Below are positions 1-12,424 of a stretch of 64,000 bases of DNA, piece by piece. Position 1 is the stretch's first letter. The number at the start of each line of letters is the position of its first letter. The notes under the pieces were generated by a model. It was not told where the DNA came from and ran no database searches. It saw only the letters and a program-made list of their open reading frames with translations. The stretch lies in assembly GCA_002401885.1 (NCBI GenBank), contig NVUL01000001.1, positions 32,966 to 96,965 on the forward strand. Direction: 5' to 3'. The stretch comes from SAR86 cluster bacterium. Lineage in GTDB: Bacteria > Pseudomonadota > Gammaproteobacteria > Pseudomonadales > Pseudohongiellaceae. Made by a program: the position numbers and the translations under genes.

Positions 1-675
1 CTGCAACAGACCGATTCTATCCAAATACTCTACAGTCTGCAGCGTCGCATCCAGAATGGCCTTAGCCAAGTCAGCCTCGGGATCGAGAGGTAACGGAGTA
101 AGTCGGCTGAACATTAGTTTGTTATCGGAAATTAGCGACTGGCGAATACCGTTTCGCTGCCAGTTTACTAAGAGAAATTCTTCACTCGTTTCTAGACCGA
201 GCTCCCTAGCAACTTTACAAATAGCGAACGCGGGAGACGTAATGCTCTTGATGGACACCTGCTCTTGCAGAAGGAGTCGAACCCAGTTGTCTACATTCCT
301 AGTTTGGGTTATCGCACTGAACAGAACCCTATCGTCACGGCGTCCGGTTTTTTCTCTACCAAGCACCTTGGCGGAACGAAACTCGACGTTTCGAAAATGC
401 TGCTCAAGCTTCCTAGTCAGGAATGATTTTCTGTCGTAGGGGCTTACATGGACAACTTTCTCCACTATAAAGTCTTCGGCAGGAGAATCTACAACCAGGG
501 ATATTTGCGTAAGTGACTCGTCGATGATGTAGGTTCTAAATTTGTCGTGACCAACATCATCGTCGATAAATACACCTAGCCTCATCAGACGGTCATTATC
601 CAGGCCATACACAGTCAATCCCTCAAAATTTATGAGGATTATGCGCTTCTCTGATGATGAGCCGAGACCTAACAT
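1..675 (-). CDS. Unidentified MSHA-operon protein, possibly PilM/GspL-like (partial)
   Basis: An open frame runs from an ATG at 675 without a stop to the window edge (225 codons visible), 19 bases after the mshG stop, so it is very likely the next gene of the pilus operon. The N-terminus (MLGLGSSSEKR) has no signal peptide. Alternating short beta-like stretches and an absence of long hydrophobic segments would fit an actin-like cytoplasmic protein of the PilM/GspL/MshI kind, but I see no diagnostic motif. The C-terminus is missing. Its role in MSHA pilus assembly is inferred from position only. Confidence 0.6.
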   Translation of the reverse strand, partial: MLGLGSSSEKRIILINFEGLTVYGLDNDRLMRLGVFIDDDVGHDKFRTYIIDESLTQISLVVDSPAEDFIVEKVVHVSPYDRKSFLTRKLEQHFRNVEFRSAKVLGREKTGRRDDRVLFSAITQTRNVDNWVRLLLQEQVSIKSITSPAFAICKVARELGLETSEEFLLVNWQRNGIRQSLISDNKLMFSRLTPLPLDPEADLAKAILDATLQTVEYLDRIGLLQ

Positions 676-694
676 TACTTTCCCTACCCTTTCC

Positions 695-1900
695 TTAAAT
701 CGCCATATTGCTAATGGAGCTGTAAACTGGGCCCATGACCGACAGCATCACCCAGCCTAGAATGGCACCTAAAAGAACTGTCATTGCCGGCTGAATCATG
801 GCCTGTACTTTGTCGATTGAATCTTTAATATCACGCTCGTAAAAATAACTTACGTTCAACAACGCATTGTCCAACTGGCCGGTAGCCTCGCCAACTTTTA
901 TCATTCTTACAACTAAGGGAGGGAATAGCCCGGTATTGCGAAAACTTGTGGACACTCCCTTACCTTCCTGAATCTCATCGCGCGCCTTGCTCAAGGCATG
1001 ACGAATAGCTTCATTGCCCGAGGCACGCTCGGTAATCTCTATACACTTTAGGACGGGAATACCCGCCTTGTACAGCATCGCGAACAAATTGGCGAAACGC
1101 GACAATATAATTTTCTTCAATACCGGCCCAATCTGCCATGCCCGTAGCTTGAACGAATCGACCTGATAGCGCGCCTCGTAGCTCACGCTGGTTGAAGTTT
1201 TAATAGCAGCCCACATAGCCATTGGTACTAATGTAAATAGGTACCAGAAGTTAACAAAGAAATTCGAGGTAGCTATCAGCAGTTTCGTATGAGTAGGTAA
1301 TTCTTGACCGATGCCCTCTATAAAACTTACCAGTTGGGGCACCAGATAGACCATTAGAAAACCCACCACTGCCATCACTACCGCTCCTACGAATACTGGA
1401 AATATAAGCAACTTCTTAGTCGTGTTAATCAACTCATCATGCCATTTAATCATCTCGTTCAAGGAGAGGAATACATCGGGCAGCTGCCCGCTCTCTTCAC
1501 CTGCGGCAATCAAGTTACTAAACATGTCATCGAAAACTTTGGGATGCTCACCCAGAGCCTGCGAAAGTGTCATGCCCCCCTCAATGTCATCAATCACCTG
1601 CCCGATGACACGCCGAAAACTTGCCTGTTCAACGCTATCACGTAGATCGACAAGTCCATCGATTATCGAAACGCCAGAACGGGTTAATTGCTCCATGTGA
1701 AAACAGAAATTGATTAGGTCGATTCGTCGAATCGCACCACCGCCGAATAGGCTTCTCTTTTCTTCGACAAATTTGCATTTGATCAGGTCCATGCCCATTC
1801 GACTGAGCCGAAATTCGAGATCATTCTCGTTCGAGGCATCTAATGTCCCAAACTGATTTCGACCTTTGCTGTCGATTGCCTTGTAACTGAAGAGTGACAT
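695..1900 (-). CDS. mshG: MSHA biogenesis protein MshG (PilC/GspF-type inner-membrane platform)
   Basis: This 401-residue protein is of the usual length for the GspF/PilC family, the polytopic platform that couples the cytoplasmic assembly ATPase to pilin polymerisation. Two repeated GspF domains (about residues 65-190 and 270-395) are visible; each contains a G-x-S-I or G-I-P-V segment followed by a GEESGQL or GEATGQL motif, and each ends in a long hydrophobic helix. Another hydrophobic segment lies near residues 210-230. It begins 7 bases after the mshE stop, so the ATPase and its membrane partner are encoded side by side. Assignment to MshG rather than a generic PilC rests on the neighbouring MSHA-type genes. 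Confidence 0.88.
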   Translation of the reverse strand: MSLFSYKAIDSKGRNQFGTLDASNENDLEFRLSRMGMDLIKCKFVEEKRSLFGGGAIRRIDLINFCFHMEQLTRSGVSIIDGLVDLRDSVEQASFRRVIGQVIDDIEGGMTLSQALGEHPKVFDDMFSNLIAAGEESGQLPDVFLSLNEMIKWHDELINTTKKLLIFPVFVGAVVMAVVGFLMVYLVPQLVSFIEGIGQELPTHTKLLIATSNFFVNFWYLFTLVPMAMWAAIKTSTSVSYEARYQVDSFKLRAWQIGPVLKKIILSRFANLFAMLYKAGIPVLKCIEITERASGNEAIRHALSKARDEIQEGKGVSTSFRNTGLFPPLVVRMIKVGEATGQLDNALLNVSYFYERDIKDSIDKVQAMIQPAMTVLLGAILGWVMLSVMGPVYSSISNMAI

Positions 1901-1907
1901 AGAATGC

Positions 1908-3626
1908 TTAGTCTCCTAGTCTGTCGGTGAGATCTACGATACGAGTAATTTCATCCAGGCTAGTGGTACCATCGATAACGCGTCTACAGGCATCATCGGC
2001 AAGCGTCCTAAAGCCTTCCTCGGCAGCTGCCTGTTTGAGAGTATGAGCGGACGCATTCTCCGAGATAAGCCTTCGAAGATTGTCACTATTCTGCAGAATT
2101 TCAAGTATCGACGTACGTCCTTTGTAGCCAAGCCCAGAGCACTTAGTACAACCAACGGCCTGATATATTTGCGTTTGGGTGTCATTTGCATCGAGCTTGA
2201 GCAGCGTGCGCTCCAGATCACCAAGTTCTTGCGGCTGCTTGCATTCGGCGCAGAGTCTGCGCACTAGTCGCTGACCGATAATTCCAATCAGATTCGCTGA
2301 AAGAAGGTCTGGCAACACGTCGAGGTCCGTGAGTCGTGGCACTGAGCCGATCGCCGAGTTGGTATGCAGAGTTGAGAATACTTGATGGCCTGTCATCGCG
2401 GCACGGAAGGCCATTTCTGCTGTTACGTTGTCACGAATCTCACCCACCAGAATTACATCTGGGTCCTGACGCATCATTGAGCGAATGCCTTCCGCGAAAT
2501 CCATCTTGGCCGCTGCATTGATTGAAGATTGACGAATCATTGGCATCGGATATTCGACCGGGTCTTCCATAGTCATTATATTGATGGCCTCCGTGTTGAT
2601 GTGATTCAACACAGAATAGAGCGTGGTGGTCTTCCCGCTACCGGTAGGGCCAGTCACGAGAATAACGCCCTCCGGCTTGGCGAGCATCATCTTGATCGCA
2701 TATAGGTTCTCTTCGCTCAGGCCCAGCGATTCTAGGGGGACGATGCCCTTACGTCTGTCCAGAATTCTGAGCACGATGTTTTCACCGTGTGTAGTGGGCT
2801 GGGCAGCAACTCTGAAATCGATCTGTCTGCCGATCAATGTGAGAGAAATCCGCCCATCTTGTGGCGCTCTCGATTCGGCTATATTCATACCACTGATTAC
2901 CTTTAGCCGCACGACCATCGCTGCCCAATAGCTCTTGTGCAGACTTCTAATCTGACGCAGTACGCCGTCGACACGATAGCGAATTCTTAGAAAGGCTTCT
3001 TCCGGCTCGAAGTGAATATCCGAGGCCCCCTGTTGTACCGCATCTGCCATCAATGCGTTGATGAGACGTACCATGGGATGATGGTATTGGTCGCCCTCAG
3101 TCTGCAGATTATCTAGATCTATCTCGCCGGTTTCGATTTCTTCCAAAATTCCATCGATGGATAGATTGAAACCATAGATTTCTTCGATGGTGCCAGCTAT
3201 GTCAGTCTCGTTACCCAGCACTGGTTGAATCTGCAGCTTGCTATCATGCAGGGCGCGAATTTGATCGAGCGCAACAATATTGTAGGTGTCTGGCATCGCT
3301 ACCGTGAGTTCATGCAAAGCCGAGTTATATGAAAGTGGCAAAACCTTGTAGCGACGTGCAAGTTCTTGCGGAACCATTTTTATCGCGTCGGCATCGATTA
3401 CGGAGCCGGTTACATCGACAGTGGAGTAGCCGGTATTCTCACTCAAGGCATCTCGAATAATGGAATCTGTTACGAAACCTAAGTGGATAAGAACGGCGCC
3501 TATACGCTTTCCAAGATTCTCTTGCTCTAAGAGTGCGATCGTTAATTGATCCGGAGTGATAATTCCCTTCTCGATCAATGCATCACCGAGTTGTTTCTTA
3601 CCAGTAGATTTAGGTTTCTCACTCAT
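1908..3626 (-). CDS. mshE: MSHA biogenesis ATPase MshE (GspE/PilB family)
   Basis: This 572-residue secretion/pilus assembly ATPase powers pilus extension. The N-terminal MshEN domain shows two tandem motifs of the c-di-GMP-binding type (about residues 12-36 and 40-63; the second begins R-I-G). The catalytic domain has Walker A GPTGSGKT at 326-333, a downstream DPDVILVGEIRD Walker B region, and a conserved LHTNSA histidine box. A C-terminal four-cysteine zinc motif (LCAEC...GCTKC) is typical of GspE. The start overlaps the end of mshN by 8 bases, suggesting translational coupling. Cyclic di-GMP control of extension is known for Vibrio MshE; here it is an inference from the motifs. Confidence 0.92.
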   Translation of the reverse strand: MSEKPKSTGKKQLGDALIEKGIITPDQLTIALLEQENLGKRIGAVLIHLGFVTDSIIRDALSENTGYSTVDVTGSVIDADAIKMVPQELARRYKVLPLSYNSALHELTVAMPDTYNIVALDQIRALHDSKLQIQPVLGNETDIAGTIEEIYGFNLSIDGILEEIETGEIDLDNLQTEGDQYHHPMVRLINALMADAVQQGASDIHFEPEEAFLRIRYRVDGVLRQIRSLHKSYWAAMVVRLKVISGMNIAESRAPQDGRISLTLIGRQIDFRVAAQPTTHGENIVLRILDRRKGIVPLESLGLSEENLYAIKMMLAKPEGVILVTGPTGSGKTTTLYSVLNHINTEAINIMTMEDPVEYPMPMIRQSSINAAAKMDFAEGIRSMMRQDPDVILVGEIRDNVTAEMAFRAAMTGHQVFSTLHTNSAIGSVPRLTDLDVLPDLLSANLIGIIGQRLVRRLCAECKQPQELGDLERTLLKLDANDTQTQIYQAVGCTKCSGLGYKGRTSILEILQNSDNLRRLISENASAHTLKQAAAEEGFRTLADDACRRVIDGTTSLDEITRIVDLTDRLGD

Positions 3627-5430
3627 CGTTGCCGTTTCCTGCCATGTTCGCGAGGCGGCTTCTGACCGCAGTTAGATCGAATCCTGCTGGATGATTCGCT
3701 GAATAACCCAATGCTTCGCGATAGTAGTTCTGTGCCGGCTCACTCTGATTCAGGTGTTCCAGGCTCACCGCCAGGTTAAACGCGTAGTCTGGATTTACTA
3801 GACCATTTAGAAGCGCGTCGGACTTAGCCAACTGTAAAGCTCTGAAGTAGGCTTGCTGAGCCTCGGACCAGCGTTGATTCGATGCTAGAAAGTTGCCATA
3901 AGCATAGGAGAGTGCAGCAACATCTGGGTGCTCATTGAGTAAGCGTTTAAGTTCAGCCTCCTGCTCGGAGGGACTGCCCGCCGGCAATAGTTCCATTAAT
4001 CCTGCACGTGCAATCGGGTCACTAGGATTGCGCGCCAGTAATCTAGAGTAGAGATCCAGGGCTTCTGTTAAGTTTCCATTTCGCGCCGTAATATTTGCAA
4101 GACCTAACAATGCGTCGCGCTGCCTAGGATCGCTAGCTAGTGTCTGACGATACAACACTTCGGCCTGATCGAGAGAGCCCTGTTGATAGGCCGCATAGGC
4201 TCGATCCACATTCGGATCGACTATCGCAACAGTCTCCTGTTTCCTGAAGCTAATTAAATTTGTAGGCTCCGCCGATTGAACGCCAATATTGGCAACAGGC
4301 TGAATTATAACCTCAGACGCAACAGCAACTGTTGGAGTATCGCCGATGATTGTCGTGGCCGTTTCAGGCTGCGGCATCTCTTCCACTATTGTCTCGGGCT
4401 GTAAGTTTGCCGCACTTCGACTCGCCTCAGGTACAGCCAGGATCTCAAGCACCGGGAGTTCGATGAGAGTATCTGCCACTGACGCTACTGCAGAAGTATC
4501 GCCAGTTTCCACATCAACGCCTCCTGGGATGACCAATTTCTCCGGCACACTGTCTGCAATATTGACCGCCGCCGTCTCCTCGGCTTCAGTAACATTAACA
4601 GCGTCAATGGACAATTGATTCCCGTCCGCTTCTGAGGAGACTCCGTCATCCACAAATTCTGTTGTCGAGTAGCTTCCCGCTGGGATATTGAACGTCGATT
4701 CCTGATTTAGAGAGACATAGAAATAAGCGGAAAGCGCAACAACAACGAGCCCTGATACGCCGCCTGCTGCGACCCTCATATTGACGTTTTTTAGTAGCGG
4801 TGACTTCTTTGCGGCGAAAACACTGCGGGCGGTTCTTCGCCCGGGCTCGTCTCTATCCCTCGCTCGCTCTCTAGCCTGCTCTGCACCCTTGGCGATCACG
4901 CGAGAATTCTGCATCTTGACAGATTTTACTGAGCCCGATGCCCCAACTATCGCTGTATCTGGGGCCGCCTCTTCGCCGGTAGTTGTATTGTCCTCTTCGC
5001 TCTCAAAACTATCGAAGTCGAAGGCCCCGTGCACAGATTTTGGTTCTTGCTGTTGTTCTGGCTCGGGCGATGCTTTCTCAACACTAGCCGCATCTCCACG
5101 GGAAGGACTTTGTTCTAAATCCGTGTCACTGCCGGCCGCGGATTCTTTAGCAGCTCCAACCGAAGTTGGCAGCACATAATCATCTTCGTCTTCAAATTTG
5201 ATTGCGGCTTCGAGGTTGGGTACAGCCGAACGCGTAGAAACTTCTTCTATGGCTTCCATGCTGAGTTTGATTTCAGATGCGGGGGAATCTTCCGAAACTT
5301 TTTCGGCCACTACACTCGCCTGCTGCGTTACATCAGCGGCGGCAGGAACAGCTTCTTCGGACTTATTCTCTTGCGCGGCCTTCTTCTTCGCTTCCTCGGC
5401 CTTGCGCAGCGCGTCCATCAATAAACTCAT
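3619..5430 (-). CDS. mshN: MSHA biogenesis protein MshN (TPR protein, inner membrane)
   Basis: The N-terminus MSLLMDALRKAEEAKKK is the hallmark of MshN-type proteins. A long acidic, low-complexity segment (about 20-210) follows, then one membrane helix (about 225-245), a second acidic linker, and a C-terminal block of tetratricopeptide repeats (about 410-600, e.g. AYAAYQQGSLDQAEVLYRQ). The expected topology is a cytoplasmic N-terminus and periplasmic TPR domain. The gene lies between the secretin gene and mshE. At 603 residues it is longer than many MshN proteins, mainly through the disordered linkers. A structural or scaffold role is known for the family; binding partners are not visible here. 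Confidence 0.82.
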   Translation of the reverse strand: MSLLMDALRKAEEAKKKAAQENKSEEAVPAAADVTQQASVVAEKVSEDSPASEIKLSMEAIEEVSTRSAVPNLEAAIKFEDEDDYVLPTSVGAAKESAAGSDTDLEQSPSRGDAASVEKASPEPEQQQEPKSVHGAFDFDSFESEEDNTTTGEEAAPDTAIVGASGSVKSVKMQNSRVIAKGAEQARERARDRDEPGRRTARSVFAAKKSPLLKNVNMRVAAGGVSGLVVVALSAYFYVSLNQESTFNIPAGSYSTTEFVDDGVSSEADGNQLSIDAVNVTEAEETAAVNIADSVPEKLVIPGGVDVETGDTSAVASVADTLIELPVLEILAVPEASRSAANLQPETIVEEMPQPETATTIIGDTPTVAVASEVIIQPVANIGVQSAEPTNLISFRKQETVAIVDPNVDRAYAAYQQGSLDQAEVLYRQTLASDPRQRDALLGLANITARNGNLTEALDLYSRLLARNPSDPIARAGLMELLPAGSPSEQEAELKRLLNEHPDVAALSYAYGNFLASNQRWSEAQQAYFRALQLAKSDALLNGLVNPDYAFNLAVSLEHLNQSEPAQNYYREALGYSANHPAGFDLTAVRSRLANMAGNGNDE

Positions 5431-5465: not shown

Positions 5466-7073
5466 TTAGAATGCTAGCCGAGCATTCCGGCTGGTATCAG
5501 AATTTGAAGCCGTTGGAAGATACTCTCTAAAATTCTCAAAATCACCCTCTATGCTAGGCTGCCTAATAACAACCGGACGGATGAAAATAATTAGCTCTGT
5601 CTTGACCAAGTTTTCATCTTTCTGGCTAAACAAATTGCCTACAATTGGAAGACGGTTCAGTCCGGGCAAACCTGAGTTGCTGTTCTCGACCGTGTCTTGC
5701 ATCAAACCACCTAGAATCGCTATCTGCCCACTTTCGACTTTTAGTATGGATTCAATCTCGCGAATCTGAACCTCCGGTATCTGGTTGATGACGTTCTCCT
5801 GAGCCAAGGCAGGGTTCGGGTCATTAACGAAACGAATTATGCGGGATATAGTCGGTCGTACGTTCAGCGTGACTTGATCGTTCTCGCTTATCTGCGGAGT
5901 CACCGCCATCGTAAAGCCGATGGGAACACTATGGACTTCACTAGTGAAGACGGTCGGAGTTCCTGGGCCGGCCGCACTCGCCGCGACGCCGGGCTCGACC
6001 GAGATCGTAAAATAAATTCTGCTGTCGACAACTCTGAGCATCGCCGTTTGATTATTGAGAGCCATAATCTTCGGGCTAGACAATACTTTCGTTTCACCGA
6101 ACTGAGATAGTAACCTAACCGTTGAGGTGATCGCATCAGGCCCTGCCGACTTGTCTATGGTTAAGACATTTGTTGGCGTAGAAGCCAAGTTTAGGCCCAG
6201 TAAATCCTGGGTAAAGCTTACCTGTCCGTTATCTCTCGCGAGCAGGGACCAATCAACTCCAGACTGGAATCGATCATTTAGATTTACTTCAACGATAGTC
6301 GCCTCAATCAGCACCTGATAAAGAGCTCGGGTTCGAACCGTCTCGATAAAGGTGAAGACGTCTTCATGCTGGCGGTTCGTTGCGCGAACAGTGACCAGGC
6401 CGCTCTCAGGACTCATTATAATGGAACTGCTACTATCACCCTCTGCACTTTCGCCAAGTATAGTCGCTAAGTTAGATTCCAACATCTGCCAAAAATCATT
6501 ATTTGAAACTTGGCTTAACGTCGAAGTGGAAGTATTGGTTTCATCGCCTCCTACGCCAGAGGCTACCGCAACTGTAGACTGCGCATTCCTAGCTACGTTG
6601 ACATAGTCGATTCGGTAGTTACGCAACTCTGGTAGGTCGGCCTCTACAGTCAGATAGTCTTCGCGCTCGAAATCCCAGACTATTGATACCTGCCTAGCGA
6701 GCCGATCGAGAATTTGCGGCAGGGTCTGATCAATCGCGTTCAAGCTAACAGAGCCGGTTACTGCGGAGTGCACATCGATATTGATGTCCGCGTCTCTCGC
6801 CATAGCGAATAGCAGCTGCCTAACCTCGACATCTTGTACAACCACCGAATAGAGCGCTAAGGGTGCTTCCGATTGCGGGGCAGTTACTGCGGGCAATGGC
6901 CTGACGATATTTGGGATGTTTGATTCGGGAGCCGCTTCAGGCGCGGCGAGGTGCCTGCCATCGACGGGTCGTTCCCCGATGGCGTCCGCGGGGTCAAACT
7001 GCAATGTGTCACAAGCCGAGAGCAGCGCTAAACTAAAGGCGATGCTCAAAATTTTTCGATCAACGTTCAACAT
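5466..7073 (-). CDS. mshL: MSHA secretin MshL (outer-membrane pore lipoprotein)
   Basis: This is a secretin of the PilQ/GspD superfamily forming the outer-membrane channel for the pilus. The N-terminus has a lipoprotein signal ending in a lipobox-like LLSAC. An N0/STN-like region (about 75-150) and a C-terminal secretin domain (about 290-510) contain the family segments VLSSPKIMALNNQTA and ILGGLMQDTVENSNSGLPGLNRLP. I take the ATG at 7073, which has GGAG eight bases upstream, giving 535 residues. An in-frame GTG at 7082 overlaps the mshM stop and is an alternative start. The gene is followed at 36 bases by mshN. Confidence 0.87.
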   Translation of the reverse strand: MLNVDRKILSIAFSLALLSACDTLQFDPADAIGERPVDGRHLAAPEAAPESNIPNIVRPLPAVTAPQSEAPLALYSVVVQDVEVRQLLFAMARDADINIDVHSAVTGSVSLNAIDQTLPQILDRLARQVSIVWDFEREDYLTVEADLPELRNYRIDYVNVARNAQSTVAVASGVGGDETNTSTSTLSQVSNNDFWQMLESNLATILGESAEGDSSSSIIMSPESGLVTVRATNRQHEDVFTFIETVRTRALYQVLIEATIVEVNLNDRFQSGVDWSLLARDNGQVSFTQDLLGLNLASTPTNVLTIDKSAGPDAITSTVRLLSQFGETKVLSSPKIMALNNQTAMLRVVDSRIYFTISVEPGVAASAAGPGTPTVFTSEVHSVPIGFTMAVTPQISENDQVTLNVRPTISRIIRFVNDPNPALAQENVINQIPEVQIREIESILKVESGQIAILGGLMQDTVENSNSGLPGLNRLPIVGNLFSQKDENLVKTELIIFIRPVVIRQPSIEGDFENFREYLPTASNSDTSRNARLAF

Positions 7074-7078
7074 ACAGA

Positions 7079-8803
7079 TCACTCCAGGATCAGGCCGGCA
7101 ATGCTATTGTTTATGTTGCATTCAACACTGCTCATATTCTGCACAAAAGGTTCGAATTCATAGATAGTCGCTGGAAGCCCCTCGATAAAATCTTGCGCAA
7201 GACTTACGCCGTCGAAATTCCCATACTTGATAGTCCAATAACTACGGTTGCTGTTGCTGGACATACAGACGTAACTGTCAGCCAGATAATCATGCTCGTC
7301 GAGTATTTGTAGGAATGATTCTGCAAATTCCAAATTGCTAGCATCCCCAGAAAGGAACTGCACGGTATATCCGCCACCTTCAGAACTCCTCAGCCAGTCG
7401 ATAGATGCAAGCACGCGATTCTGCAGCTTGCCTCCTGATGCCGATCTGCCGAAACCCATTTCAGCGGGAGTGAGCTGTTGCTCTGCAGGCGTGGCCACGA
7501 TGTTATTAACCCAACCAGGCTGAACAAATCCTTCTGCCAGGCTAGGCTCAATACGTACGACTTCCTCGGGAGCAACTGCAATTCGAGCTCGGCTTGCCCT
7601 CTCGGCGCCATCTACTAACCCTGCTGCGACTGTAGCTGCATGTGCTGCTACGTTTAGCTGATTAACGTCACCTTCAACCGGCATGGGAGGGAACTGAGGC
7701 TTCTGAGACTGTGGCCATTGTTCTTGCTCGAGTTCTACGACTATTTCTTCATCACCATCTTCGACGATTGATATGCGGACAGGATTGCTTGCTGGCTGTT
7801 GTTCCAGGAACTTGCCGCTAAACTGATCAATCACTTGTGACTGCATTGCTATGCTACCCGCCTGCGGCCAGACAACGAACGCAACTGCCAAAACAGCGGC
7901 CAACATACCAGCACTAACTACACGCAGAGGTGAAAACAGGGTACGCAGCGCTGCGGTTAGGTAGTCGCTATCGCAGATGGCTGCCCATACATGATGCGCA
8001 GTGATTAGCGGAGACGTGCCCCCGTTTAATTCACTGCCAGCTAGCACGTCCTCGGCAAATGCAGCCAGCAGTGCCTTATCTACAAGTATATTAATACGTC
8101 GCGTAAGGCCTCCCGAGGCCTTCGACACTAGCCATTCGGCACTTCTCGTAAGCAACTGTGGACAGGGACAACCTGCAGCTCCCAGACGAAAACGCACATA
8201 TTCCGACAGTTCATTCGTAGTCAGCGGATTCAGGTGAAAACTATGAGTGATACGCTCGCGAAGCTGACGTATATTCTTCGAGCTCAGATTCTTATCCAGT
8301 TCAGGTTGACCGAAAAGAATAATCTGCATCAACTTGTCGACTTGTGTTTCGAGATTACTGAACAGCCGAATCTCTTCCAGAGTTTCTACCGACATACCCT
8401 GAGCTTCTTCGATGATAACGAGGACTCTTCTATTCGCCGTATGCTGTTTGATAAGGTAATTTTGTAGCTGCTGCATAACCAACAGCTTCGATGTATCGCG
8501 TCTCACCGGCAGCTTCAATTCAAATGCGATGGCATACAGAACTTCATCTGGACTGAGCCTAGGGTTAGCGAGGTAGACAATTTCTGTGGTTTCCGGCAAA
8601 CGTTCTTCCAGCATGCGGCAGAGCATCGTTTTTCCGCTGCCAACCTCGCCTACTACCTTGAGAATTCCTTCGCCACTCTCGATTGCAAATAGCATTGCAT
8701 CGAGCACTACGCCCCTACCCTGATTGCCACCGGAAAAAAACAACGATGTGTCGGGCGTAATACGGAACGGATGTCTTTCGAGTGAAAAATAATCCAAGTA
8801 CAT
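7079..8803 (-). CDS. mshM: MSHA biogenesis protein MshM: ExeA-like AAA ATPase with C-terminal SPOR-like domain
   Basis: An ATPase of the ExeA/GspA type, which helps secretin assembly through the peptidoglycan. The start MYLDYFSLERHPF is typical of the family, and an AGGAG lies nine bases upstream of the ATG at 8803; an upstream in-frame start is less likely. Walker A GEVGSGKT is at 52-59 and a Walker B-like VLVIIEEAQ near 115. One membrane helix (about 300-320) separates the cytoplasmic ATPase from a periplasmic part ending in a SPOR-like fold (about 460-555; YTVQFLSG, then YWTIKYGNF). SPOR domains bind denuded glycan in septal peptidoglycan. It is the first gene of the pilus operon and its stop touches the mshL start. 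Confidence 0.84.
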   Translation of the reverse strand: MYLDYFSLERHPFRITPDTSLFFSGGNQGRGVVLDAMLFAIESGEGILKVVGEVGSGKTMLCRMLEERLPETTEIVYLANPRLSPDEVLYAIAFELKLPVRRDTSKLLVMQQLQNYLIKQHTANRRVLVIIEEAQGMSVETLEEIRLFSNLETQVDKLMQIILFGQPELDKNLSSKNIRQLRERITHSFHLNPLTTNELSEYVRFRLGAAGCPCPQLLTRSAEWLVSKASGGLTRRINILVDKALLAAFAEDVLAGSELNGGTSPLITAHHVWAAICDSDYLTAALRTLFSPLRVVSAGMLAAVLAVAFVVWPQAGSIAMQSQVIDQFSGKFLEQQPASNPVRISIVEDGDEEIVVELEQEQWPQSQKPQFPPMPVEGDVNQLNVAAHAATVAAGLVDGAERASRARIAVAPEEVVRIEPSLAEGFVQPGWVNNIVATPAEQQLTPAEMGFGRSASGGKLQNRVLASIDWLRSSEGGGYTVQFLSGDASNLEFAESFLQILDEHDYLADSYVCMSSNSNRSYWTIKYGNFDGVSLAQDFIEGLPATIYEFEPFVQNMSSVECNINNSIAGLILE

Positions 8804-9000
8804 TTTTGCGTGGCTCCTGCCAGATACAGACTCTAAGCACAGACACATTTCGCGCGCCCAACACCAAGGCCTGATAAAAAAAACCAGTTCTAGTCATAGT
8901 ATCGGGCAGGTTCAGGAGAAATTGACTAAAATCGCGGGATTTAACCGCCTTTTTGGGGTCGAGGACGCAATTGAGACAGATTGCGGGAGAATCAGGGAAT

Positions 9001-9660
9001 TCAGGGGTTTGTCTCTTCTCCCAATTCGAATTCTGCAAGGATTTGTGACTCATTACGGGCATCCTCAACCCAAACGGATAAAGCGGTATTTTGCTGCATT
9101 GTTCTTATGTATTCCTGGCTGGAATCGGAAAGCTCAATGCCATAGGTAGTGAGGCGCATTACGATAGGCGCGAACATACAATCGGCCACAGAAAACTCCC
9201 CGAAGAGATATTCGCCGCGCGGAAAGAACTTAGCCCTCGCATCGCTAAACAGCTGGTCCACCCGTCTACAGTCTGCTTCGGCCGCCGCAGTGATCTCTAG
9301 TCTCTTTCGAGCTCTGCAGTTCATGGGCATCTCGGAACGAATCGCCATGAAGCCGGAATGCATCTCGCTACAATAGGCGCGGCATAGTGCGCGCTCCTCA
9401 ATGTTCCTGGGCCAAGCCGACCCTTGTAGGTATTTTTCTGATACATACTCACAAATAGCCAGTGAATCCCAGATTGTGCTATCGCCATCCTTCAGCACAG
9501 GCACACGCAGCGTTGGCGAATACTGCGCAAGCTCCTGCTGGTACCCCTCGGTAAAGAGCGCAATGCAAATTTCCTCGAAAGGGATATCGAAGTGCTTTAG
9601 CAACAGCCAAGGCCGCAGCGACCAAGCTGAATAGTTCTTGCTACCGATAACTAGTTGCAC
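9001..9660 (-). CDS. Glutathione S-transferase family protein
   Basis: This 219-residue protein is of normal GST length. The thioredoxin-like N-terminal half begins MQLVIGSKNYSAWSLRPW and carries the cis-proline glutathione-site segment RVPVLKDG, then the DSLAICEYV helix. The C-terminal half is alpha-helical and includes FSVADCMFAP, the typical N-capping and D-box region. The S-x-W-S/R pattern at the N-terminus places the likely catalytic serine near residue 11 or 14. Substrate is unknown; such proteins conjugate glutathione to electrophiles or act in stress responses. It stands alone: a terminator lies upstream at 9705-9746, and the pilus operon starts downstream. Confidence 0.86.
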   Translation of the reverse strand: MQLVIGSKNYSAWSLRPWLLLKHFDIPFEEICIALFTEGYQQELAQYSPTLRVPVLKDGDSTIWDSLAICEYVSEKYLQGSAWPRNIEERALCRAYCSEMHSGFMAIRSEMPMNCRARKRLEITAAAEADCRRVDQLFSDARAKFFPRGEYLFGEFSVADCMFAPIVMRLTTYGIELSDSSQEYIRTMQQNTALSVWVEDARNESQILAEFELGEETNP

Positions 9661-9774: not shown

Positions 9775-12264
9775 CTACAGTGTCCGAATCTGAGTATAGT
9801 CTGTATAGCCCATTAGTATCTTCTCGATACCATCCTGCTTCCTGGTGTGCATGCCCGCTTTGATTGCCGCAATATGTACTTCCGATGCTGGGGCCCGACG
9901 CAAGACCAAATTCTTGATTTCAGAATTGTTCATCAAGAGTTCGTGAACACCCATGCGCCCTCTATAACCCGTATCAAGGCAATCCATGCAGCCCGGCGCT
10001 TTATAGAGAGTGAACTGACCTTTCTGCGCGAAGTCCTTATGCCAGAGTTCAATCTGCCTGATTACTTCTTCATCACTAGGTGCAGAACGAGAATCTCCCG
10101 ACATTGCCTCACTGCAATATTCGACTGCCAGGAACTCGAGCTCTCGCTTCTCAGGTGTGTAAGCTTTCTTACAAGAGGTGCACAAGGTTCTTGTTAGGCG
10201 TTGGGAGAGTACACCGATCATCGCATCGGCGAAGTTGAATGGATCCATATCCATATCTAATAAGCGCACGATACTTTCCGCTGCGCTATTGGTATGCAGC
10301 GTTGATAGCACCAAGTGACCAGTGAGCGATGCCTCGATCGCTGTTGATGCTGTTTCATGGTCACGCATCTCGCCTACCATGATGATGTCTGGGTCAGCAC
10401 GCAGGAAGGCTCTCATCGCGATAGAAAATGTCATTCCAACTTTGTCGTTTACTTCAACTTGGCGTAGCCCCGGCTGAGTAATTTCCACTGGATCTTCCGC
10501 TGTCCAAATTTTTCGCTCAGTACCATTCAAATAATTTAAAACGGAATGCAAGGTTGTACTCTTACCAGAACCGGTAGGGCCACAAACGAGAAACAAGCCG
10601 TGCGGCCTGGAAATGCCATCTAATAAACGGTCGAGATTGTCACTACTTAGCCCGATGGCGTTGATCGGCATACACTTACCGCCACTAAGCAGACGAATAA
10701 CAACATCTTCTATACCACCGGCGGTAGGAATGGTTGCCACACGTAGCTCTACATCAACTGGAGCGAAGTGTCTGAAATTAATCTTTCCATCCTGAGGCTT
10801 GTTCTTGTTAGAAATGTCTAGGTGCGCCATTACCTTGATTCTGGAAACGAACACGGCGCGATATTTTGTGGGAAATTTGTAGTAGGTCGCTAGCACACCA
10901 TCTTTTCTGAAGCGCACGACAACCTTCTGCTTGCCCATACCAGGCTCTATATGTATGTCCGACACCTTCTGCCGATGCGCATCTTCGACAATTTTATTGA
11001 CTATGCGCACTACGACATTGTCAGTAACCTGCGCAGTTTCTGCTGCTGAGAAGAGCGTCGAATCATAGGAATCGTCTTCACCATCGGCATCTAACTCGCC
11101 ATCGAAATCGGCTATCGTCGCTTCGATGTCTTCGGATGAATAATAGAACTGTAGTGCCCAGTTAATGTCCTCTGGGGACGCCATGACAGGCTCGACATAT
11201 TTGTTAATGTTAAAACTTAGAGCGTCAGTAACCTGCCAATCCATTGGGTTCTCGATCGCTACGACGATCTTGCCCTCGTAGACATAGAGGGGTACAACCT
11301 TGTGCTTAAATGCGATAGCCGCGGTGAGCACTCGAATAACTTCCGGCTCCACAATAAATTCGCGTAGGTTTACAAAGGGAATACCTAGCTTCTTGGCGAG
11401 GCTCTGTTGAATCTCATCCTTCGCGATGACTCCGGCGTTGACCAAAATCTCGCCAAGCGCGCTCTTACGACTCTTCTTCTGTTCTTTTAACGCGTCTTGA
11501 AGCTGCACCTCCGTTACCAGATCTTCCGACAGCAGAATCTCACCGAGTTTTAGGTTCGGCATGTTCTTCTGCCGAGAGAGAGCGCCCTCTAATTCATCTG
11601 CATCAACGATCTTATTGCTTACTAAGTATTCGCCGATCGTGCGCGAGCGCTCTGTCTGTTGCTCCTCGAGAGCAGTGCTTAGTGCTTCCTGAGAAATCTG
11701 CTTCTCTTGAACGAGCAGGTCGCCGATCTGACCACCGATGGTATTGCTTTCGATTGAGGCTTTGGAGACGAAGAGGTGGGTACAGTAGCGCCACTTGCGT
11801 CCGACCTTTGTCTGCTCGTAAAAATGGAGTCCGTTCTTGTCGGTGCGCGAGCCGTAGGTCTTGCCGGTGATTTCTGTTCGATCTTTAAAAAATACCTCGA
11901 AGGAACGCGCAGCCGTATCGACATCCAGTCCTTTGATTTTCTCTTCGGTATTCTGGCTTTCTAACATCAATTGATACGGTTTCTCCAGTCGAAGAAACTT
12001 AATGTTAGCCATATCGATATCGGTAGGATTGTTAGCACGCGGTTCGAGAATGCTGATTGTTTCGGTAGACGCGTTGAACTGAGTGAGCTTACCCTTAGTA
12101 CGGCTATTATTATTCAGCTCAATAGTTACTGAGGTATTGGAGTATTCAGGCCCCTCATGCACATCCGAGAACGGCGGTGGCTGAAGGTCTATCTTCATAA
12201 TTACTGGGGATTGTGAATTCATGCCCGAAGAAGGCCCCATCACAATCGCTGAATCGCTTTGCAT
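9775..12264 (-). CDS. Orphan PilB/GspE-type ATPase with four N-terminal 30-residue repeats
   Basis: This 829-residue ATPase is much longer than MshE or PilB (about 560-575). The catalytic part is complete: Walker A GPTGSGKS at 562-569, a DPDIIMVGEMRD Walker B segment, an LSTLHTNSA histidine box and a C-terminal CTSC...CMDC zinc site. The N-terminal 170 residues form a separate region of unknown fold. It is followed by four copies of an LGEIL...ALxxQ helical-hairpin motif spaced exactly 30 residues apart (starting near 180, 210, 240, 270), then an MshEN-like domain. The start at 12264 has a strong GAGGAG site. No pilin or platform gene adjoins it. It may serve the MSHA system or act in twitching or chemotactic control; this is inference. 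Confidence 0.85.
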   Translation of the reverse strand: MQSDSAIVMGPSSGMNSQSPVIMKIDLQPPPFSDVHEGPEYSNTSVTIELNNNSRTKGKLTQFNASTETISILEPRANNPTDIDMANIKFLRLEKPYQLMLESQNTEEKIKGLDVDTAARSFEVFFKDRTEITGKTYGSRTDKNGLHFYEQTKVGRKWRYCTHLFVSKASIESNTIGGQIGDLLVQEKQISQEALSTALEEQQTERSRTIGEYLVSNKIVDADELEGALSRQKNMPNLKLGEILLSEDLVTEVQLQDALKEQKKSRKSALGEILVNAGVIAKDEIQQSLAKKLGIPFVNLREFIVEPEVIRVLTAAIAFKHKVVPLYVYEGKIVVAIENPMDWQVTDALSFNINKYVEPVMASPEDINWALQFYYSSEDIEATIADFDGELDADGEDDSYDSTLFSAAETAQVTDNVVVRIVNKIVEDAHRQKVSDIHIEPGMGKQKVVVRFRKDGVLATYYKFPTKYRAVFVSRIKVMAHLDISNKNKPQDGKINFRHFAPVDVELRVATIPTAGGIEDVVIRLLSGGKCMPINAIGLSSDNLDRLLDGISRPHGLFLVCGPTGSGKSTTLHSVLNYLNGTERKIWTAEDPVEITQPGLRQVEVNDKVGMTFSIAMRAFLRADPDIIMVGEMRDHETASTAIEASLTGHLVLSTLHTNSAAESIVRLLDMDMDPFNFADAMIGVLSQRLTRTLCTSCKKAYTPEKRELEFLAVEYCSEAMSGDSRSAPSDEEVIRQIELWHKDFAQKGQFTLYKAPGCMDCLDTGYRGRMGVHELLMNNSEIKNLVLRRAPASEVHIAAIKAGMHTRKQDGIEKILMGYTDYTQIRTL

Positions 12265-12424
12265 ATTTACTCCTCAACTCCTGCAGTACTTTAGCAGGAA
12301 TTGGAAAACTGCACAATTTGTGCATCTTATTGAATTTATTAGCTATTCATCCTGTTGCTGATCGCTATTTCCAGCAAGCAAGGTGAGACTTTGTAATTCG
12401 TTCTGCTTCGACTCAGGTCGCTTT

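Follow-up and report, generated by a model that had tools for sequence, protein, structure and literature searches.

The window, a stretch of 64,000 nucleotides, carries a gene for an assembly-type ATPase next to a set of genes for an MSHA-type pilus (Table 1). The genes mshM, mshL, mshN, mshE, mshG and mshI run from position 8848 down to position 1 on the same strand as the ATPase gene, which forms the edge of the cluster and is separated from mshM by a single GST-like gene. The original prediction had described the ATPase as an orphan that stands apart from pilus genes; this description has to be abandoned, since the MSHA cluster begins 926 bp downstream on the same strand. Past mshI, beyond the window, lie two genes with pilin-type signals, a two-component pair and then lspA and glycerol genes (named by eye from their translations). 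The apparent two-component pair (sensor kinase and response regulator; L159, 11303–13025) is located inside the MSHA cluster, between the pilin-type-signal genes. The other flank of the ATPase gene is occupied by DMT, aminotransferase, rplQ and rpoA genes, whose order is fixed in the genus, and the order DMT, ATPase, GST, mshM, mshL is shared by relatives in the genus. A 15-base palindrome-like site (TGCACAATTTGTGCA) is present at 12310–12324, 46 bases 5' of the ATPase start. This TGCACA-N3-TGTGCA site was set aside as it is kept only in a few close relatives (L070, L071).

Table 1. Features of the ATPase gene and of the neighbouring MSHA cluster (positions in the window)
Feature	Position	Strand	Basis or remark
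Assembly-type ATPase gene, 829 aa, ATG start	9775..12264	-	ORF list; T2SSE 377 bits
Predicted SH3/LSm-like barrel 1, residues 45-93	11986..12132	-	AF2 block pLDDT about 91-97; weak Pfam LSM 40-63
Predicted SH3/LSm-like barrel 2, residues 120-176	11737..11907	-	AF2 strands; tandem Tudor fold match
Motif 1, residues 179-202	11659..11730	-	Q at position 1; Gln 24 kept
Motif 2, residues 209-232	11569..11640	-	T at position 1; Gln 24 kept
Motif 3, residues 239-262	11479..11550	-	K at position 1; Gln 24 family-invariant
Motif 4, residues 269-292	11389..11460	-	A at position 1; Gln 24 replaced by Lys
C-terminal subdomain of MshEN/GSPII domain, residues 293-379	11128..11388	-	Pfam MshEN 66.6 bits; AF2 helices, strands
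T2SSE ATPase domain, residues 414-826	9787..11025	-	Pfam
Walker A GPTGSGKST, residues 562-570	10555..10581	-	Kept in 60/61 sequences of at least 740 aa
Walker B region RADPDIIMVGEMRD, residues 622-635	10360..10401	-	
CTSC, residues 695-698	10171..10182	-	First CxxC of zinc-binding pair
CMDC, residues 759-762	9979..9990	-	Second CxxC of zinc-binding pair
GST-like gene between ATPase gene and mshM	9001..9660	-	Pfam GST_N_2, E 2.4e-14
mshM-like AAA ATPase	7079..8848	-	AAA_22 100 bits; ExeA/MshM-type TIGR03015 match; cluster position
mshL-like secretin	5466..7082	-	TIGR02519 pilus_MshL 237 bits, best family, just under cut-off 250
mshN-like TPR protein	3619..5430	-	TPR matches, gene order
mshE, the cluster's own extension ATPase	1908..3626	-	Two motifs; motif II ends in Asn
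mshG-like inner-membrane platform protein	695..1900	-	
mshI-like gene, cut by window edge	1..675	-	510 aa in genome

The assignment to the PilB/GspE-type assembly ATPases was correct, given the T2SSE match and the presence of the catalytic motifs: Walker A, Walker B, the His box and both CxxC motifs are intact in the 829-residue protein. They are conserved in its relatives apart from scattered misses; the first CxxC was unmatched by the pattern used in 14 of 61 relatives. When the gene (G000) was compared with its ortholog in G029, both being intact copies, Ka/Ks was between 0.011 and 0.045 by region in every module, the value for motifs 1 and 2 being 0.011. Judged from sequence, the protein is an intact PilB-class ATPase under strong purifying selection.

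Several more specific identities were rejected. The protein scored 509 of the 675.65 bits set for PilB (TIGR02538) and falls in a separate clade, although PilB is still its best full-length NCBIfam match. The scores for GspE (TIGR02533; 448 of 630.25 bits) and TfpB (NF053534; 399.7 of 850 bits) were below the cut-offs, and both stand apart in the tree. MshE forms a separate clade, and the cluster has its own mshE. The genome also encodes a PilB above the cut-off, a TfpB at 870 bits and MshE, and its GspE-like protein scores just under the GspE cut-off. In a tree of ATPase domains the family formed one clade (92/89) on the PilB side, apart from MshE, GspE and TfpB; its sister was a GAF-like orphan ATPase (100/100). 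Two candidate relatives, L136 and L062, fell outside the family in this tree and were dropped.

N-terminal to the ATPase domain, four 24-residue MshEN-type motifs (in order, QIGDLLVQEKQISQEALSTALEEQ, TIGEYLVSNKIVDADELEGALSRQ, KLGEILLSEDLVTEVQLQDALKEQ and ALGEILVNAGVIAKDEIQQSLAKK) begin at residues 179, 209, 239 and 269, a spacing of exactly 30. They match 7, 8, 10 and 8 of 11 consensus positions, respectively. The summed motif score of 33 was reached in none of 20,000 shuffles of the region (best shuffle 19), which upholds the proposal that there are four motifs rather than two at 30-residue spacing. A canonical MshEN domain contains two motifs and a 5-residue spacer (PMC5013675), whereas the spacer between motifs here is 6 residues. 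Scored against NCBIfam NF053729 (c-di-GMP_motif), a curated model of the MshE-related c-di-GMP motif with a cut-off of 38 bits, motifs 1 and 2 alone reached 49.7 bits and motifs 3 and 4 alone 54.9 bits. Since both halves are above the cut-off, the region is best described as two consecutive motif pairs.

An AlphaFold2 model of residues 1–402 was built from 37 relatives. The predicted order is two five-stranded barrels (residues 45–93 and 120–176), both mostly above pLDDT 90, four helical hairpins and then the C subdomain. The original prediction had set apart a 170-residue N-terminal region of unknown fold; the region exists, but its fold is now predicted by AlphaFold2 and Foldseek to be two SH3/Tudor/LSm-like barrels. 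Using Foldseek, the N terminus matched the tandem Tudor of 53BP1 with an E value of 1.6e-4. A DUF6982 match was obtained in 11 of the 37 relatives, somewhere within residues 1–402 (best 4.8e-8), and the Pfam DUF6982 and LSM matches are faint sequence traces of the predicted barrels. The four predicted hairpins agree with the expectation that the repeats form MshEN-like helical pairs, although the packing of motifs 1 and 2 is less certain: pLDDT in the 1–402 model was 84–95 for motifs 3 and 4 and 57–77 for motifs 1 and 2. Motifs 3 and 4 with the subdomain that follows matched GSPII-B of PilF and MshE with E values of about 1e-9; this pair passes the motif profile, is followed by MshEN_C and has the predicted MshEN fold. 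Motifs 1 and 2 folded alone gave four helices with a pLDDT of 88. Their fold match to MshE was weak (E 2.8, rmsd 12.7), and they are without a C subdomain of their own.

The leading arginine of the MshEN motif is replaced in each repeat (Q, T, K and A at position 1), as had been noticed at the outset. Altered nucleotide binding had been proposed on this ground; it is plausible for motifs 3 and 4, but the arginine is not the reason. GSPII-B of Thermus thermophilus PilF has K and L at the arginine position and an affinity for c-di-GMP about 83-fold above that of MshEN, and putting R into GSPII-B weakens the binding (PMC11731258). Because GSPII-B binds c-di-GMP with K and L there, the arginine is dispensable, and its loss was rejected as the cause of altered binding on the published PilF data (PMC11731258). 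The terminal glutamine of the motif hydrogen-bonds c-di-GMP, and the non-binding GSPII-A of PilF has H and R instead (PMC12002112). This glutamine is replaced by lysine in motif 4 in 37 of 37 relatives, which is what makes altered binding by motifs 3 and 4 plausible. It is kept in motif 3 in all 37 relatives, in motif 1 in 32 and in motif 2 in 29 (5 gaps). Glutamine is thus found at both ends of the pair formed by motifs 1 and 2 and at only one end of the pair formed by motifs 3 and 4. We infer that c-di-GMP binding is altered or absent in the ATPase-proximal pair, and that the extra pair, with both glutamines kept, may bind it. Four GGDEF protein matches are encoded in the genome. In all 11 readable genomes, the last residue of motif II in the cluster's own MshE (loci L146–L156) is Asn or Asp.

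The integrity of the ATPase gene was compared with the presence of MSHA in 81 genomes of the genus; most are metagenome assemblies, and close relatives among them cannot be counted as independent. Matching mshL and mshG are found together, in exactly the same 14 genomes. An unbroken ATPase copy was found in 13 of these 14 MSHA genomes versus 2 of the 67 without this cluster. The 13 copies, in which no lesion was seen, include 11 that are complete or open to the contig end and 2 cut by contig ends; the 67 other genomes have 2 unbroken copies, 9 broken copies and, in 56 cases, none. Hence 0 of 13 copies with MSHA carry lesions versus 9 of 11 copies without (Fisher's test: p = 4e-5 for lesions, 4e-12 for presence; kinship uncorrected), and within the genus unbroken copies track the cluster.

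The lesions are varied: a stop at 413; a frameshift at 414; two stops, at 55 and 82; two frameshifts, at 95 and 309; a frameshift at 95 with a stop at 262; a frameshift at 110; several lesions together; one large deletion; and an insertion of 2 bases close to residue 28. A single lesion may be common to two of the broken copies, and assembly errors may explain part of the set. The copy in G020 was not accepted as intact, as a 2-base insertion throws its start codon out of frame. For the broken copies in G035, G020 and G060, Ka/Ks was still low where computable, indicating that the lesions are recent or that some of them are assembly errors. In G020, which is without MSHA, an lspA-like gene directly follows the ATPase gene; the MSHA cluster is thus missing exactly as far as the ATPase gene. 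Two separate broken copies were seen in one assembly (G087:C240 and G087:C277).

Both unbroken copies in genomes without this cluster have peculiarities. G011 has another MSHA-type cluster. G014 (L017/L122), a genome without MSHA, keeps a long open copy in which the N-terminal module is diverged and motif 1 is missing. There is a long low-complexity insert between the barrels and motif 2 of that copy. Conversely, G013 has the MSHA cluster and no ATPase gene, and several of its msh genes are frameshifted. These frameshifts were not used as a sign of decay, other genes of that assembly being broken as well.

A scan of 84,980 species genomes yielded 68 loci, including relatives in Gallionella, Methylotenera, Burkholderiales, Chromatiales and Lysobacteraceae. 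Full-length relatives are found in gamma- and betaproteobacteria, and most keep four motifs at 30-residue spacing; some (L109, L114, L122, L127, L132 and L134) have only motifs 3 and 4 and a remnant, the second helix, of motif 2. Adjacency of the ATPase gene to MSHA is limited to this genus, and the two are mostly unlinked in betaproteobacterial and other relatives. Within the flanks fetched for the distant relatives, no pilus gene of the window's cluster was found and the neighbours look unrelated; no conserved operon partner emerged, as the shared neighbours track kinship. An MshL-like secretin was absent in 7 of 29 genomes of the more distant relatives. Co-occurrence with MSHA in distant relatives was dropped as support, because nearly all sampled Gallionellaceae (more than 80 of 100 genomes) carry an MshL-like secretin. 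From its sequences and the structural model, the family is a distinct class of assembly-type ATPase, defined by a doubled MshEN_N region and predicted N-terminal barrels.

PilF of T. thermophilus was the best fold match of the N-terminal model (E 1.4e-9). It too belongs to the assembly-type ATPases and has multiple MshEN/GSPII modules (PMC11731258, PMC12002112), and it lacks the arginine, without which its c-di-GMP site works (PMC11731258). In its non-binding GSPII-A a basic residue, R62, takes the place of the glutamine (PMC12002112), as Lys does in motif 4 here. However, PilF carries three full modules, and every one of them has a C-terminal subdomain of its own, whereas the present protein has two MshEN_N-like halves and a single C subdomain; two SH3-like barrels come first here, unlike in PilF. 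The MshE of Vibrio cholerae shares the 24-residue motif, the kind of ATPase and the MSHA setting but has two motifs, a 29-residue spacing, both terminal glutamines and no N-terminal barrels (PMC5013675). TfpB of Acinetobacter baylyi resembles the protein in being an extra PilB-like motor outside the pilB-pilC operon (PMC8213720), but the protein scores about 400 bits versus a TfpB cut-off of 850, and the genome has its own TfpB. The GAF-like orphan ATPase of the same genome (L005; L142 6951–9281, G000:C84), the sister in the tree, differs in having no clear motif repeats; it is GAF-like by eye only, with no GAF family matched, and no pilus genes were found in its neighbourhood.

With moderate confidence, we favor the view that the protein is an accessory assembly-type (extension-type) motor of the adjacent MSHA pilus, alongside the cluster's own MshE. 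This reading is suggested by the position of the gene, on the border of the MSHA cluster, and by its integrity, which follows the cluster in the genus. The protein would be a second motor working with the MSHA-type pilus encoded beside it, and its architecture is predicted to consist of two SH3/Tudor-like barrels, two MshEN_N-like modules (motifs 1–2 and 3–4), one MshEN_C-like subdomain and the ATPase. The barrels may recruit a partner (MshE, the platform protein or some other MSHA component), and the N-terminal modules may tune the motor. Motifs 3 and 4 would have lost classical c-di-GMP binding through the Gln-to-Lys change in motif 4, and motifs 1 and 2, with both glutamines present, may have retained it. 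The nearest working model is the two-motor arrangement of PilB and TfpB in A. baylyi, a documented motor pair (PMC8213720).

A tentative alternative is that the protein serves the type IVa (PilB/PilC) pilus as a general accessory extension motor, its adjacency to MSHA in this genus being mere neighbourhood. Its position on the PilB side of the tree, apart from MshE, and the PilB model as best full-length match (509 bits) fit this possibility, as does the lack of linkage to MSHA in most distant relatives, some of them without MshL; moreover, the gene for TfpB, the known accessory motor, likewise lies apart from the pilus operon (PMC8213720). However, gene loss and lesions follow MSHA, whereas PilQ/GspD-like secretin matches turned up in the same genome search for most genomes where the gene is absent or damaged, so a type IVa pilus alone does not keep the gene intact. 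The genome, furthermore, already has PilB, plus a TfpB over the cut-off. We consider it unlikely that the protein acts as a regulatory subunit and not as a motor, forming mixed rings with MshE or PilB in which its N terminus relays a c-di-GMP or protein-binding signal. The unusually large N-terminal half (about 400 residues) with its barrels and doubled MshEN_N would suit such a role, the cluster's MshE is without the motif II glutamine in all readable genomes, and contacts between different T4P ATPases have been reported (PMC11656802); yet all catalytic motifs are conserved as in an active enzyme. A very improbable reading is that of an ordinary PilB-like orphan ATPase, with extra motifs that stem from neutral duplication and have no special role. 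Some members do keep only motifs 3 and 4 and the motif 2 remnant, but the layout of four motifs spaced by 30 residues is found repeatedly in both gamma- and betaproteobacteria, and motifs 1 and 2 are under strong purifying selection (Ka/Ks 0.011).

Starting from the favored accessory MSHA motor, a bolder proposal, which we regard as rather doubtful, is that the accessory motor has taken over c-di-GMP control of this MSHA pilus from MshE. It is prompted by the loss of the glutamine from both MshE motif II and motif 4, which leaves motifs 1 and 2 as the only pair that keeps both. In such a split design, the ligand-binding pair (motifs 1–2) would sit on top of a pair that is blind to the ligand and relays the signal to the ring, and the SH3-like barrels would dock the protein to the pilus base. 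The family may in any case represent a widespread, recognisable class of accessory motor whose N-terminal layout is fixed and unusual. With it come a genus in which motor integrity follows one pilus system and a natural test of the role of the MshEN glutamines. How one pilus machine is shared among several PilB-like ATPases is an open question (PMC11656802).

Part of the genus has a further MSHA-type cluster, which is diverged and has a longer secretin (L143, G011:C17). The mshL matches near 198–217 bits in 12 genomes also point to such a cluster, and in G011 both motifs of its MshE-type ATPase end in Gln.
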